From NCBI GenBank assembly GCA_944390105.1, contig CALXOV010000045.1, positions 1 to 64,000 on the forward strand: a DNA stretch of 64,000 nucleotides, given 5' to 3'. Source of the stretch: an uncultured Succinivibrionaceae bacterium (GTDB lineage Bacteria > Pseudomonadota > Gammaproteobacteria > Enterobacterales > Succinivibrionaceae). Under the pieces are notes generated by a model. The model did no database searches and was not told the origin of the DNA. It saw only the letters and a program-made list of their open reading frames with translations. Shown here one piece after another: positions 3,516-27,706 of the stretch (within the stretch, counting starts at the first letter, position 1; the number at the start of each line of letters is the position of its first letter). Made by a program: the position numbers and the translations under genes.

Positions 3516-4535
3516 TTACTCCTCATACCCATTGGGGTTATTCTTCTGCCAATTATATGAATCACGCGTCATATCATCTAAGGTTAGCTCAGCCTTCCAG
3601 TTAAGCTCACGCGCAGCCTTGGACGGGTCGGCAAAGCACTGCACCACATCGCCAGCGCGGCGCGGGGCAAACTGGTGCGGCAGCTCACGGCCGATGGCCT
3701 TGGAGAAGGCGTTGACCATATCGAGCACGCTATAGCCGATGCCGGTGCCTAAATTGTAGATGTGCACGCCGCCTTGATTGAGACAGTGTTTAATCGCGGC
3801 CACATGGCCCTTAGCTAAATCCACCACATGGATGTAGTCGCGGATGCAGGTTCCGTCCTTGGTCGGATAGTCATTACCAAAGATATTTAAAATCGGCAGC
3901 TTGCCGACGGCAACTTGGGTCAGGTACGGCATCAAGTTGTTCGGGATACCGCGCGGATCTTCGCCGATAAGCCCAGACGGATGGGCGCCTACCGGATTGA
4001 AGTAGCGCAGCAGCGTCACCGAGAATTCCGGAATAGCGCGCTGTAGCTCTTCGGCCATATATTCAATATCAATCTTGGTCTGACCGTACGGGCTGTTGGC
4101 ACGCTTGACCGGTGAGGCTTCAGTTAAAGGCACCTCATCGGGCTCGCCGTAGACAGTTGCGGACGAGGAGAAAATGAAATTGCGGCAGTTGAAGTCACGC
4201 ATCACCGTAAGCAGCATGCGCGAGCCATTGACATTATTGTCATAGTACTCAAGCGGCTTTTTCACCGACTCGCCAACCGCTTTAAGTCCGGCAAAGTGAA
4301 TCACTCCATCAATCTGATGGGCCTTGAACACCGCCTCAAGCTGCTCACGCACGCGGATATCGCCAAAGTAGCAGGGAACAGACTTGCCGCAGATCTGATG
4401 GATGCGGTTTAATACCGCCGGTTTGGCATTGCTGAAGTTGTCGAGAATGATGGGTTCATAGCCCGCCTTGACCAATTCAATGACGGTATGCGAACCGATA
4501 AAGCCAGCACCGCCGGTAACTAAAATCGTGGTCAT
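3516..4535 (-). CDS. galE: UDP-glucose 4-epimerase
   Basis: Interconverts UDP-galactose and UDP-glucose, using tightly bound NAD. The 339 residues match the family (E. coli 338). The Rossmann motif G-G-A-G-F-I-G lies at 8-14, and the catalytic triad is S125 with Y150-x3-K154. It is the first gene of galETK and faces a divergent galR-type gene across a 247-bp region holding two repressor operators. Its final codons, GAG GAG TAA, serve as the ribosome-binding site of galT. Confidence 0.97.
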
Positions 4536-21704: not shown

Positions 21705-24534
<2,830 letters not shown>

Positions 24535-24765
24535 ATAAGCTCCGAAATAATCTTGCAAAAAAATTAAGCTGCCGGCTGGATGCTGCCGCATTTAAACTTC
24601 AATTATAGCTGACTACAGGCTAACTGCGCGGACGGGGGTAAAAATCCACGTCCTAATTAAGCTTTTCACTGCACCTGCGGGACAACGTCCCGGCACGTGT
24701 ACTTCCTGCTACAATTTAGGGGAGGAAGAATTGGCGTTATGCCGCCCATTTAGGTACAAAACATC

Positions 24766-25527
24766 ATGACGCAACTGCAGCCCAATCGCGACTTAAGACT
24801 TTCTGAAGCTCTGAGCATTCTGTTTGATGGACTTAAAATTGCTCTGTCCAAAGAGTGCCGACTCTACATCATCATTCCCATCATTATCAACTTTTTACTC
24901 TTAACCGGCCTGTCCTATCTGCTCATCACCTACGTCAATCAGTGGATTAATGAGCTCACCGGCGGTATGCCCGCTATCATCAGCGCACTCATCTCCGGGC
25001 TTTTAGTCATCAGCGCCGTGCTGGCCGGATGTTATTTTTTCAGTACCTTTGCCACGTTGATTGCCTCACCTTTCTATGGACTCTTATCCGATAAGGTTGA
25101 GCTCAAGCTTACCGGCAAGGCATCTAGCGATGACTCATTACTCTACATTATTAAAAGCACCCCGAAGATCATCATGCGCGAAGTGCACAAACAGCTTTAT
25201 TTCCTGCCGCGTGCGCTAGTGTGTCTTATCATCTTATTTATTCCGCTACTCAATATTGTGTCGCCAATTTTGTGGTTCATGCTGACTTCTTGGATGGGTT
25301 GTCTGCAATACTGCGACTATGCCTATGACAATCACAAGATCTCATTTCATGACATGCGCCGCGACATCAGCACGCATCGCCTGCATTCCTTTGTTTTCGG
25401 TATGGTGATCACCTTACTGCTTACCATCCCGATCTTCAATCTACTGGTCCCGCCGGCGGCGGTGTGCGCCGGCACCAAGTATTACTTAAGACTGCAGGAA
25501 GTCTTTAAGTTGCAGGAGGTAGCCTAA
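24766..25527 (+). CDS. cysZ: Sulfate transporter CysZ (EI24 family)
   Basis: Inner-membrane sulfate uptake protein. The 253 residues (E. coli 253) include hydrophobic segments near 32-56, 68-96, 148-172 and 205-232, with the family pattern A-S-P-F-Y-G-L-L-S-D-K-V-E after the second. The N-terminal L-R-L-S-E-A-L-S-I-L-F-D-G matches E. coli-type CysZ. Its stop overlaps the next start (TAATG), placing it in one operon with the ptsI-like and crr-like genes. No cysK follows, unlike E. coli. Confidence 0.9.
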   Translation: MTQLQPNRDLRLSEALSILFDGLKIALSKECRLYIIIPIIINFLLLTGLSYLLITYVNQWINELTGGMPAIISALISGLLVISAVLAGCYFFSTFATLIASPFYGLLSDKVELKLTGKASSDDSLLYIIKSTPKIIMREVHKQLYFLPRALVCLIILFIPLLNIVSPILWFMLTSWMGCLQYCDYAYDNHKISFHDMRRDISTHRLHSFVFGMVITLLLTIPIFNLLVPPAAVCAGTKYYLRLQEVFKLQEVA

Positions 25528-27191
25528 TGTATTCACTTACCGGCATGGCAGTTTCTGAGGGTGCAGCGGCCGGCAGCGCGTTGCAGTTGCGCTGTCCGCG
25601 CATTGCCCCCCGCATTCAATCAGGGCACATTGAGCCTGAAGCCGAGATAGCTGCCTTTGAACGAACCTGTCGCGATTTTGTCGCTAGGCTCTATCAAGTC
25701 ATGCAGGGTACTGCCCCAGATAAGGTGCGCGATCTCTTCGGCGCAGTAGCAGGTTTCATTCAATCAGAAAGCAATCAAAGCGCGATTAAAAATTTAATTC
25801 ACGGCGGCATGAGCGCACGCGCAGCCTGCACTTCGGTTTTGCTGGATAACCTCAAAGTTTTCGGTAGCAGCGATGATGTTGAAATCAAAGCTCAGGTGCG
25901 CGAACTTAATGCACTAGCGCGCGAATTTATTGCCTCGCTAGATCAAGAAAACAGCGACAGCTTTATCCTCCCCGAGCTCACTGAGCCTACCGTAATTGTG
26001 GCGCAAGATTTAAGCCCGGCGCGCTTTTTATGCCTGCGTACCGAATTTGTCAGCGCAGTGGTACTTGAAGGCGGCATGGCCTCGGGGCATCTTGGCGTAG
26101 TATTGCGTGAGTTGCGCATTCCGGCCTTATTCTCGGTAATTGGCGCTAGCTCAATTAAAGACGGTGAGCGCGTGTTAGTGGATGCAACTAATTCTGCTTT
26201 AATCGTTGAACCGCCGCAAGAGGCCTTAACTGAGCTGTTACACAATCAAGTAATGCCGCCTGATTATGAAGATGACGGCTCATTAAGCTCCAATATCACG
26301 GTAGCCTGCTCCATCGGCGCAGCGCGCGAGCTTGAGGTTAATCAGGCAATTACCCGCCACGGCTTGGGGCTTTTGCGTTCCGAGTTTTTATACTTAGGAT
26401 CCGATCATGAGCCCTCTGAAGAGGAAATGCTCAGCTGCTTTGCCCAGCTCTTTGCGCAAATTCCTGACTACGCACCGATTACCGCACGTACCTTTGACTT
26501 TGCCGGCGATAAAAAACCGATTTTTACCCTAAATCTTGATGATAAAGGTCCGCTGCACGGCTACGGTGCATGCGTGGGTAGCGTACTTATCAAAAAAGAG
26601 ATCCGTGCTATGCTGCAGGCTGCGCCCGATCGCGCTATCAGCATTGTATTTCCCTTAGTCAGCCGTTTTTCGGAGGCTAAATACCTAAACGATCTGCTGT
26701 GTGCGGCCATTGATGAGCTGCACGCTGAAGGCAAGCCCTGTGCGCACAGCAGCAGCGCCTTGATGATTGAAACGCCGGCGGCGGTGCTCTCGGCCAAGGC
26801 TTTTGCCGCACTATCCTCGCGTTTTATCATTGGTACTAGCTCGCTTGCCGAATATGCCAGCGCCCCGCGCGCGCCTGATGCGTCCTTTACCCCAGCCTTA
26901 GCCAAGATGATTGCACTGGCCTGCCAAGGTGCGCATGAGGCTAAAGTTAAGGTTGGGGTTGCCGGACGCTTTGCCGCGCGCGTCGAGTTATTGCCCTTTT
27001 TCCTGCAGTTAGGGGCCGATTACATCAGCGTCGATTCCTATTCCGTTCCCAAGGTCTGTGCCGCTCTCGAGCGCCTGGATACCGACAAACATGCCCCGCG
27101 TTTTAATCCTGATCTTTACGATAAAGTGATGGCACTGACGACCGGGCGCGATATTACCGCCCTTATCAATAATCTGAACTTTTTGGGGTAG
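25527..27191 (+). CDS. ptsI: Divergent PTS enzyme I homologue with altered catalytic sites
   Basis: Full-length (554 aa, E. coli 575) enzyme I architecture: N-terminal swivel/HPr-binding part (1-225) and C-terminal PEP-binding barrel (about 255-554). Several catalytic features are changed. The active-site loop reads G-G-M-A-S-G-H at 182-188 instead of G-G-R-T-S-H, so the histidine is shifted by one residue. G-T-N-D-L is G-T-S-S-L (436-440), removing the Asn-Asp pair for PEP and magnesium. M-C-G-E-L is V-A-G-R-F (478-482), removing the catalytic cysteine. Arginines at R-T-F-D and I-R-A-M-L and the glutamate of I-E-T-P-A-A remain. PEP-dependent autophosphorylation is therefore doubtful. Coupled to cysZ (1-bp overlap) and 2 bp before the crr-like gene; no ptsH is nearby. 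Confidence 0.88.
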   Translation: MYSLTGMAVSEGAAAGSALQLRCPRIAPRIQSGHIEPEAEIAAFERTCRDFVARLYQVMQGTAPDKVRDLFGAVAGFIQSESNQSAIKNLIHGGMSARAACTSVLLDNLKVFGSSDDVEIKAQVRELNALAREFIASLDQENSDSFILPELTEPTVIVAQDLSPARFLCLRTEFVSAVVLEGGMASGHLGVVLRELRIPALFSVIGASSIKDGERVLVDATNSALIVEPPQEALTELLHNQVMPPDYEDDGSLSSNITVACSIGAARELEVNQAITRHGLGLLRSEFLYLGSDHEPSEEEMLSCFAQLFAQIPDYAPITARTFDFAGDKKPIFTLNLDDKGPLHGYGACVGSVLIKKEIRAMLQAAPDRAISIVFPLVSRFSEAKYLNDLLCAAIDELHAEGKPCAHSSSALMIETPAAVLSAKAFAALSSRFIIGTSSLAEYASAPRAPDASFTPALAKMIALACQGAHEAKVKVGVAGRFAARVELLPFFLQLGADYISVDSYSVPKVCAALERLDTDKHAPRFNPDLYDKVMALTTGRDITALINNLNFLG

Positions 27192-27193
27192 CC

Positions 27194-27706
27194 ATGTCAT
27201 TTTTATCGCATCTATTCCATTCCACCCCCTCTGAGGATGAAGTCGACTTAGTGCTGTATGCGCCCTTAAACGGCACCCTGTTGCCATTATCTGAAGTACC
27301 GGACGTGGTGATTTCCGAAAAAATTGTCGGCGACGGCGTAGCCATCATCCCGGACAGCGAGACTATTTTCGCCCCCTGCGACGGCACCATTGCCAGACTC
27401 TTGGCCACCAATACCGCGTTTTCGATTAAAACCGCTCAGAATTTGGAGATTTACGTCAGCTTTGGCATCGGTACGCTTGATTTTCAGGGTGAGGGCTTTT
27501 TCTCTCGCGCGCAGGTAGGTCAACCGGTCAAACGCGGCGATCCTATCATTCAGGTAGACATGTCGGTATTAAATGACCGCATTAAATCCACAGTTACCTC
27601 GATGATTGTAGTGCGCTCCTCGGGGGCTATCGATCATGTAACGGCCGGCACCGGCAAAGCGGTAGCCGGAGTTACGCCCTGCGCGTGGGTGACGCTGCAG
27701 CATTAG
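27194..27706 (+). CDS. crr: EIIA-Glc (Crr) homologue lacking both active-site histidines
   Basis: A 170-residue protein that aligns over its whole length with EIIA-Glc (E. coli 169): A-P-L-N-G, V-P-D-V-V-I-S-E-K-I-V-G-D-G at 35-48, D-G-T-I, T-N-x-A-F-S-I, F-G-I-x-T and G-E-G-F. Position 74 is Thr where E. coli has His75, and position 89 is Ser (Y-V-S-F-G-I) where E. coli has the phosphorylated His90. It cannot take part in normal phosphotransfer. Retention of the fold in a tight operon with the altered enzyme I suggests a regulatory or structural role. That role is inferred. Confidence 0.9.
   Translation: MSFLSHLFHSTPSEDEVDLVLYAPLNGTLLPLSEVPDVVISEKIVGDGVAIIPDSETIFAPCDGTIARLLATNTAFSIKTAQNLEIYVSFGIGTLDFQGEGFFSRAQVGQPVKRGDPIIQVDMSVLNDRIKSTVTSMIVVRSSGAIDHVTAGTGKAVAGVTPCAWVTLQH

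Follow-up and report, generated by a model that had tools for sequence, protein, structure and literature searches.

The closest described systems to the locus reported here are the ptsH-ptsI-crr operon of E. coli and, in the way it may work, the regulatory protein Crh. In EIIA-Glc (Crr), His90 is the phosphorylated residue and His75 has a supporting role, and the roles of residues 454, 455, 465 and 502 of Enzyme I (EI) are established as well. EIIA-Glc of V. cholerae and E. coli acts by direct protein binding, with N-terminal membrane anchoring for integral membrane partners, for which an amphipathic N-terminal helix is needed (PMC6123446). Crh, found in Bacillus and relatives, is an HPr paralogue that has lost the relay residue His15 and serves regulation (PMC9631020). 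Here we describe two adjacent genes in a 64,000 nucleotide stretch of DNA from an uncultured Succinivibrionaceae bacterium (the window), designated EI-psi and EIIA-psi, and on balance we favour the reading that an ancestral ptsH-ptsI-crr operon has been turned in place into a phosphorelay-dead, functional regulatory pair.

Profile matches and alignment identify the second gene of the pair (27194..27706, + strand) as a 170 aa EIIA-Glc orthologue without the phosphorylation site, and its start lies 2 bases past the stop of the EI-like gene. EIIA-psi matches PF00358 (PTS_EIIA_1 domain) at 1.1e-34 with 119.3 bits (cut-off 27.2) and scores 110.5 bits against TIGR00830, above the cut-off of 97.5, but at 158.6 bits it falls below the cut-off of 212 for the PRK09439 Crr equivalog; its identity to E. 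coli Crr is 40%. The first-pass annotation had described a protein that aligns with Crr from end to end, has Thr and Ser codons (ACC and AGC) at both active-site histidines and shows no frameshift, and each of these points held. The Crr model aligns across the full length of the protein, all 170 codons are translated with zero frameshifts, and alignment with E. coli Crr places Thr74 (ACC, 27413..27415, + strand) at His75 and Ser89 (AGC, 27458..27460, + strand) at the phosphorylation site, His90. EIIA-psi thus lacks the two histidines that mark a Crr member, and by position, downstream of an EI gene and near ligA-zipA-cysZ, it is a Crr orthologue.

While that annotation was right about the EIIA, its account of a lone protein was incomplete, as it missed the degenerate EI gene directly upstream. 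This gene (25527..27191, + strand) encodes a 554 aa EI-like pseudoenzyme, a degenerate PtsI recognized from its domain matches, its catalytic losses and a fold search. Its start overlaps the cysZ stop (TAATG), and the sequence has a GGAGG ribosome-binding site for it within cysZ (25516..25520, + strand). EI-psi has the three-domain PEP-utiliser architecture (PF05524, PF00391 and PF02896) and scores below the PtsI equivalog cut-offs (TIGR01417, 166.7 vs. 341.7; PRK11177, 128.8 vs. 824). The structural models were folded from three sequences only; the EI-psi model (pLDDT 68) is adequate for fold recognition only, and Enzyme I structures such as 2kx9, 2wqd and 2hwg lead its full-length matches, while the EIIA-psi model (pLDDT 40) is too poor for surface mapping.

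The active site of EI-psi is partly kept and partly lost. His188 (26088..26090, + strand), the equivalent of E. coli EI His189, is retained and is His in 37/37 full-length orthologues, and Arg296, Arg332, Lys340 and Glu431 of EI are also kept. None of the four Mg-PEP site residues (N454, D455, R465 and C502) is present. By alignment, Ser438-Ser439 (26838..26843, + strand) replace Asn454-Asp455, with Ser-Ser at these positions in 39/39 orthologues (37 full-length and 2 partial), and Ala479 (26961..26963, + strand) replaces the catalytic acid Cys502 (Ala in 36 of 37 orthologues, Val in the other one). Arg465 is lost as well, being mostly Pro among the orthologues and Ala in the window, and arginines have been gained at EI positions 504 (34/37) and 508 (37/37). 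Changes extend to the residues listed for HPr docking at the EI interface (PMC3724859): E67R and L85N in 37/37, Y122E/D in 35/37, M78 to Gly, Ser or Ala, and R126 to various residues. The canonical EIs of the window's own genome retain Y122, R126 and M78. Judged from these active sites, the pair are ptsI and crr orthologues by position and fold and are not functional members of either family, and we are highly confident that they are non-catalytic for the PEP relay.

The pair follows cysZ (24766..25527, + strand; PF07264, 9e-48), the first gene of the coupled trio and a member of the sulfate permease family, which scores 239 bits against the NF003433 equivalog (cut-off 140) and in alignment retains the Arg of the sulfate-site motif (PMC5967866) and the DNHK core. 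Next to it lie zipA (23797..24591, − strand; gene order as in E. coli K-12) and ligA (21705..23810, − strand; 54% identical to E. coli LigA), synteny anchors of the ancestral pts locus. The order in the window is ligA-zipA-cysZ-EI-EIIA, compared to ligA-zipA-cysZ-cysK-ptsH-ptsI-crr in E. coli K-12, with ptsH and cysK missing. At the same site, genus g6 of the same family has ptsH, ptsI and crr all in place, and none of their catalytic residues is missing. The synteny with E. coli and the intact operon in g6 are most simply explained if EI-psi and EIIA-psi are the native pts operon minus cysK and ptsH, converted in place, rather than an acquired paralogue. The pair therefore resembles the E. 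coli operon in its order beside ligA-zipA-cysZ, its folds and EI His189, Arg296, Arg332 and Glu431, and differs from it in the absence of ptsH, of EI N454, D455, C502 and HPr docking, and of EIIA His75 and His90, with cysZ coupled directly to EI-psi. This spacing is 0–20 bases in most genera outside g2. Scans of the locus for promoters and terminators gave nothing above chance, and the three CRP sites found upstream of cysZ, against 3.6 expected, did not go beyond chance either.

Unlike the pair, the canonical EI and EIIA proteins of sister genera g6, g8, g10 and g14 retain N454-D455, C502, His75 and His90; g6 shares the locus, but ptsH is still there. The catalytically intact EIs of g6, g8 and g10 already share three features with EI-psi: residue 67 is Arg or Lys, residue 168 is Phe or Leu, and a short stretch is deleted after residue 358. 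Since they combine derived features of EI-psi with catalytic residues, they look like an intermediate state, as if HPr docking had perhaps been altered earlier than catalysis was lost. Asn in place of Arg126 is also found in EIs of g6 (L093), g8 (L100-L102 and L104) and g10 (L094 and L097).

We compared 57 Succinivibrionaceae genomes from 14 genera, all but a few of them drafts. The pair is confined to 8 of the 14 genera, with EIIA-psi in 40/41 genomes and EI-psi in 39/41, and a search of 395 sampled genomes of the order gave no match at 1e-60 beyond these 8 genera. EI-psi and EIIA-psi each form a single clade (SH-aLRT 100 and 99, respectively). Residue 90 is never His among the 40 EIIA-psi orthologues (22 Thr, 12 Ser, 3 Arg and one each of Asn, Gly and Val), and residue 75 is His once (27 Asn, 7 Thr, 5 Ser). 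The first-pass annotation had proposed close relatives keeping both histidines as a refutation; in genus g1, all five genomes have Thr or Asn at 75 and Ser or Thr at 90, with neither His kept. It had also argued against simple decay, which is borne out by substitution of the same sites across species and by pairwise dN/dS of 0.02–0.14 for EIIA-psi. For EI-psi the range is 0.01–0.10, and pair by pair the values of both genes are comparable to or below those of ligA and zipA. The unsaturated pairs are G001/G008 (EIIA-psi 0.033, EI-psi 0.014) and G030/G040 (0.053 and 0.016, respectively); ratios in many other pairs are rough because dS is saturated there. With His90 absent from 40/40 orthologues, EIIA-psi and EI-psi are neither errors nor decaying genes, and selection of the pair for another function is close to certain.

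Nearly all psi-clade genomes have a separate intact EI, nearly all have a separate HPr and most have further EIIA genes; the window's genome carries a complete EIIA-EI-HPr-EIIBC set on contig C10, and its two EIIA genes other than EIIA-psi (L012 and L014) retain both histidines. Because separate intact EI and HPr genes are present in the same cells, the dead pair, as read from gene content, is an addition and not a failed sole copy. There are four HPr genes in total in the window's genome, one of which (L015, G000:C2, ~3780-4036) is the last gene of an operon that also encodes a permease of the GntP type, an aldolase and a four-carbon-acid kinase. L014 (G000:C20, 4721-5212) encodes an EIIA_1 protein with both histidines within an ABC sugar-transporter operon, beside split transketolase genes and a gene resembling fucose isomerase, and it is possible that the PTS controls the ABC transporter at this locus. 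Second EIIA genes resembling L014 are present in many psi genomes. Genera g12 and g13 (G049-G055) retain a Crr that has His90, and the sole EI found in them is of the long EI-Ntr type (ORFs of 750–812 aa); HPr was undetected in G050, G051, G054 and G055 and lies within an ORF of 400–443 aa in G049, G052 and G053. We considered PEP synthase as an identity for the 750–810 aa EI-like frames and rejected it, as the EI N-terminal domain is present; most of them are more likely EI-Ntr (PtsP), and g12 and g13 would therefore not be devoid of EI. One Crr in G055 (L089, C57, 3793-4257) has Asn at His75 with His90 retained, and both histidines are found in its congener G054.

The first-pass annotation had described the rest of the EIIA fold as well kept. 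This holds for the fold, but not for the old partner-binding face, which has been selectively rewritten. We defined the face as the E. coli EIIA-Glc positions that touch glycerol kinase (GlpK), taken from Table 2 of PMC5770620, and counted as conserved those positions conserved in canonical relatives. At 8 of 12 otherwise conserved face positions EIIA-psi differs, compared to 4 of 32 elsewhere (Fisher p = 0.0009). The changes include F41I, F71L/I/V, D94G/E and loss of V96, while E43, V40 and D38 are retained. Several replacements are near-invariant (Ile41 and Tyr88 in 40/40, Trp165 in 39/40 and Arg69 in 38/40), a signature suggesting that the face has been rebuilt and not abandoned. The N-terminus of EIIA-psi has a hydrophobic pattern, M-[GS]-[FLI]-[FL]-S-x-[LF], that is reminiscent of the Crr membrane anchor, although in permutation tests its helical moment mostly falls short of significance and the amphipathic pattern is statistically unclear.

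With this face selectively rewritten, EIIA-psi is less likely simply to go on binding the customary partners of EIIA-Glc, and the rewriting bears directly on the alternative that survives best, in which EIIA-psi is locked in the unphosphorylated state and carries on its usual jobs (inducer exclusion and adenylate cyclase control) with EI-psi as a passive remnant. The kept fold, the three retained face residues and the presence of class I adenylate cyclase in 55/57 family genomes, with its C-terminal part intact in the psi clade, are all consistent with this. With that said, it would leave the GlpK-facing changes unexplained, it has to contend with the other EIIA genes in most of these genomes, and a true GlpK scores above the cut-off in just 15/57 genomes, that of the window not among them, a patchy distribution for which we also rejected GlpK as a general target. 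Furthermore, EI-psi is under strong purifying selection and so is no passive remnant, and we regard this alternative as improbable.

The invariance of His189 is unexpected if phosphate has no part, and it fits a different alternative, in which this residue of EI-psi still receives phosphate, in reverse from HPr~P or from some other donor, and EIIA-psi learns the state of the canonical PTS through EI-psi binding that depends on this phosphate. The separate intact EI and HPr genes of the same cells also speak for it. However, the HPr-docking residues are lost, with charge reversal at residue 67 and Arg126 and Tyr122 gone, and G037 (96% complete) has EI-psi with HPr undetected, leaving this explanation also rather unlikely.

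Relaxed decay of an operon made redundant once a second PTS was acquired could account for G044 (L088, G044:C90), which has lost EI-psi with cysZ and EIIA-psi remaining 97 bases apart, and for G047, where none of cysZ, EI-psi and EIIA-psi was seen. For most of the clade decay is refuted by dN/dS near that of ligA and zipA and by conservation, with full-length ORFs in 8 genera and invariant replacement residues, and it is very unlikely overall. The EIIA-psi of G044 occurs without EI-psi, and therefore the two genes are not strictly interdependent. Ser or Thr at residue 90 in 34/40 orthologues might be taken as a new phospho-acceptor that continues the relay by other chemistry, but the other six have Arg, Asn, Gly or Val at this position and the upstream donor, EI-psi, is without PEP chemistry, so we rejected a new phosphosite here as highly improbable. 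The genome of the window is a 66-contig draft, but the idea that this stretch was wrongly sequenced or assembled is refuted by substitution of the same positions in 40 separate genomes and has a negligible chance of being correct.

Returning to a converted regulatory pair, the relay is broken three times, from PEP to EI, from EI to HPr and from HPr to EIIA, and it is likely that the pair is a binding-based regulator, acting without phosphate transfer. EI-psi would be the sensor. The replacements in its pocket (Ser454, Ser455 and Arg508 in 37/37, Arg504 in 34/37), which vary as little as catalytic residues do, suggest that the ligand has probably changed, and the kept Arg296, Arg332, Lys340, Glu431 and His189 together with the new arginines point to a different, probably metal-independent, anionic one. 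EIIA-psi would be the effector, docking on a partner protein that most plausibly lies in the membrane or is associated with it. Phosphorylation state, the switch of EIIA-Glc, is a switch EIIA-psi cannot use. In working, the pair would be closer to Crh than to the PTS, as Crh is a PTS paralogue that has lost its relay histidine, the regulatory role of the pair being our proposal; it differs in that Crh is one HPr-like protein under Ser46 phosphorylation, while the pair are two dead relay proteins at the ancestral locus with no conserved replacement phosphosite.

The first candidate partner is CysZ, encoded in the same operon, which we put forward tentatively, and the second is class I adenylate cyclase, a target we hold to be doubtful. 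CysZ is present in 52/57 family genomes and PF01507 (CysD/CysH) in just 17/57; these PAPS-reductase-family genes were undetected in most psi genomes and occur mainly in canonical genera. Canonical genera without CysD/CysH also retain CysZ, and retention of CysZ alone is therefore no pointer to the pair. In mirror-tree comparisons, EI-psi and EIIA-psi had a partial r of 0.84 given LigA, but the unlinked control CyaA gave similar values, and after controls the partial r was 0.43 for EI and EIIA, 0.29 for EIIA and the CyaA C-terminus and 0.24 for EIIA and CysZ. Co-evolution of EI-psi and EIIA-psi beyond common ancestry is thus weak, and these comparisons favour neither CysZ nor adenylate cyclase. 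The most specific form of the proposal is a phosphate-free switch in cells mostly without detectable sulfate-activation or reduction genes. In it, a metabolite that is not Mg-PEP would be sensed by the rebuilt anion pocket of EI-psi (Ser-Ser-Ala and the new arginines at 504 and 508), which would gate CysZ through EIIA-psi and its new docking face. We offer this as speculation with a small chance of being right.

The pair is undescribed in the open-licence literature searched, and a description elsewhere is possible. Loss of the relay site from a single protein is already known from Crh; in the present case EI and EIIA-Glc have both died within the operon native to them, and the dead forms are fixed across 8 genera under strong selection. 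For annotation, matches to ptsI or crr in these gut and rumen bacteria do not equate to a working PTS. The pair sets what EI and EIIA-Glc do by binding apart from the phosphorelay and is a natural test of their phosphate-free roles, with G044 as a natural test of EIIA-psi working alone. In a gut and rumen branch of the Succinivibrionaceae comprising about 40 species, a classic phosphate relay has seemingly been turned into a phosphate-independent system.
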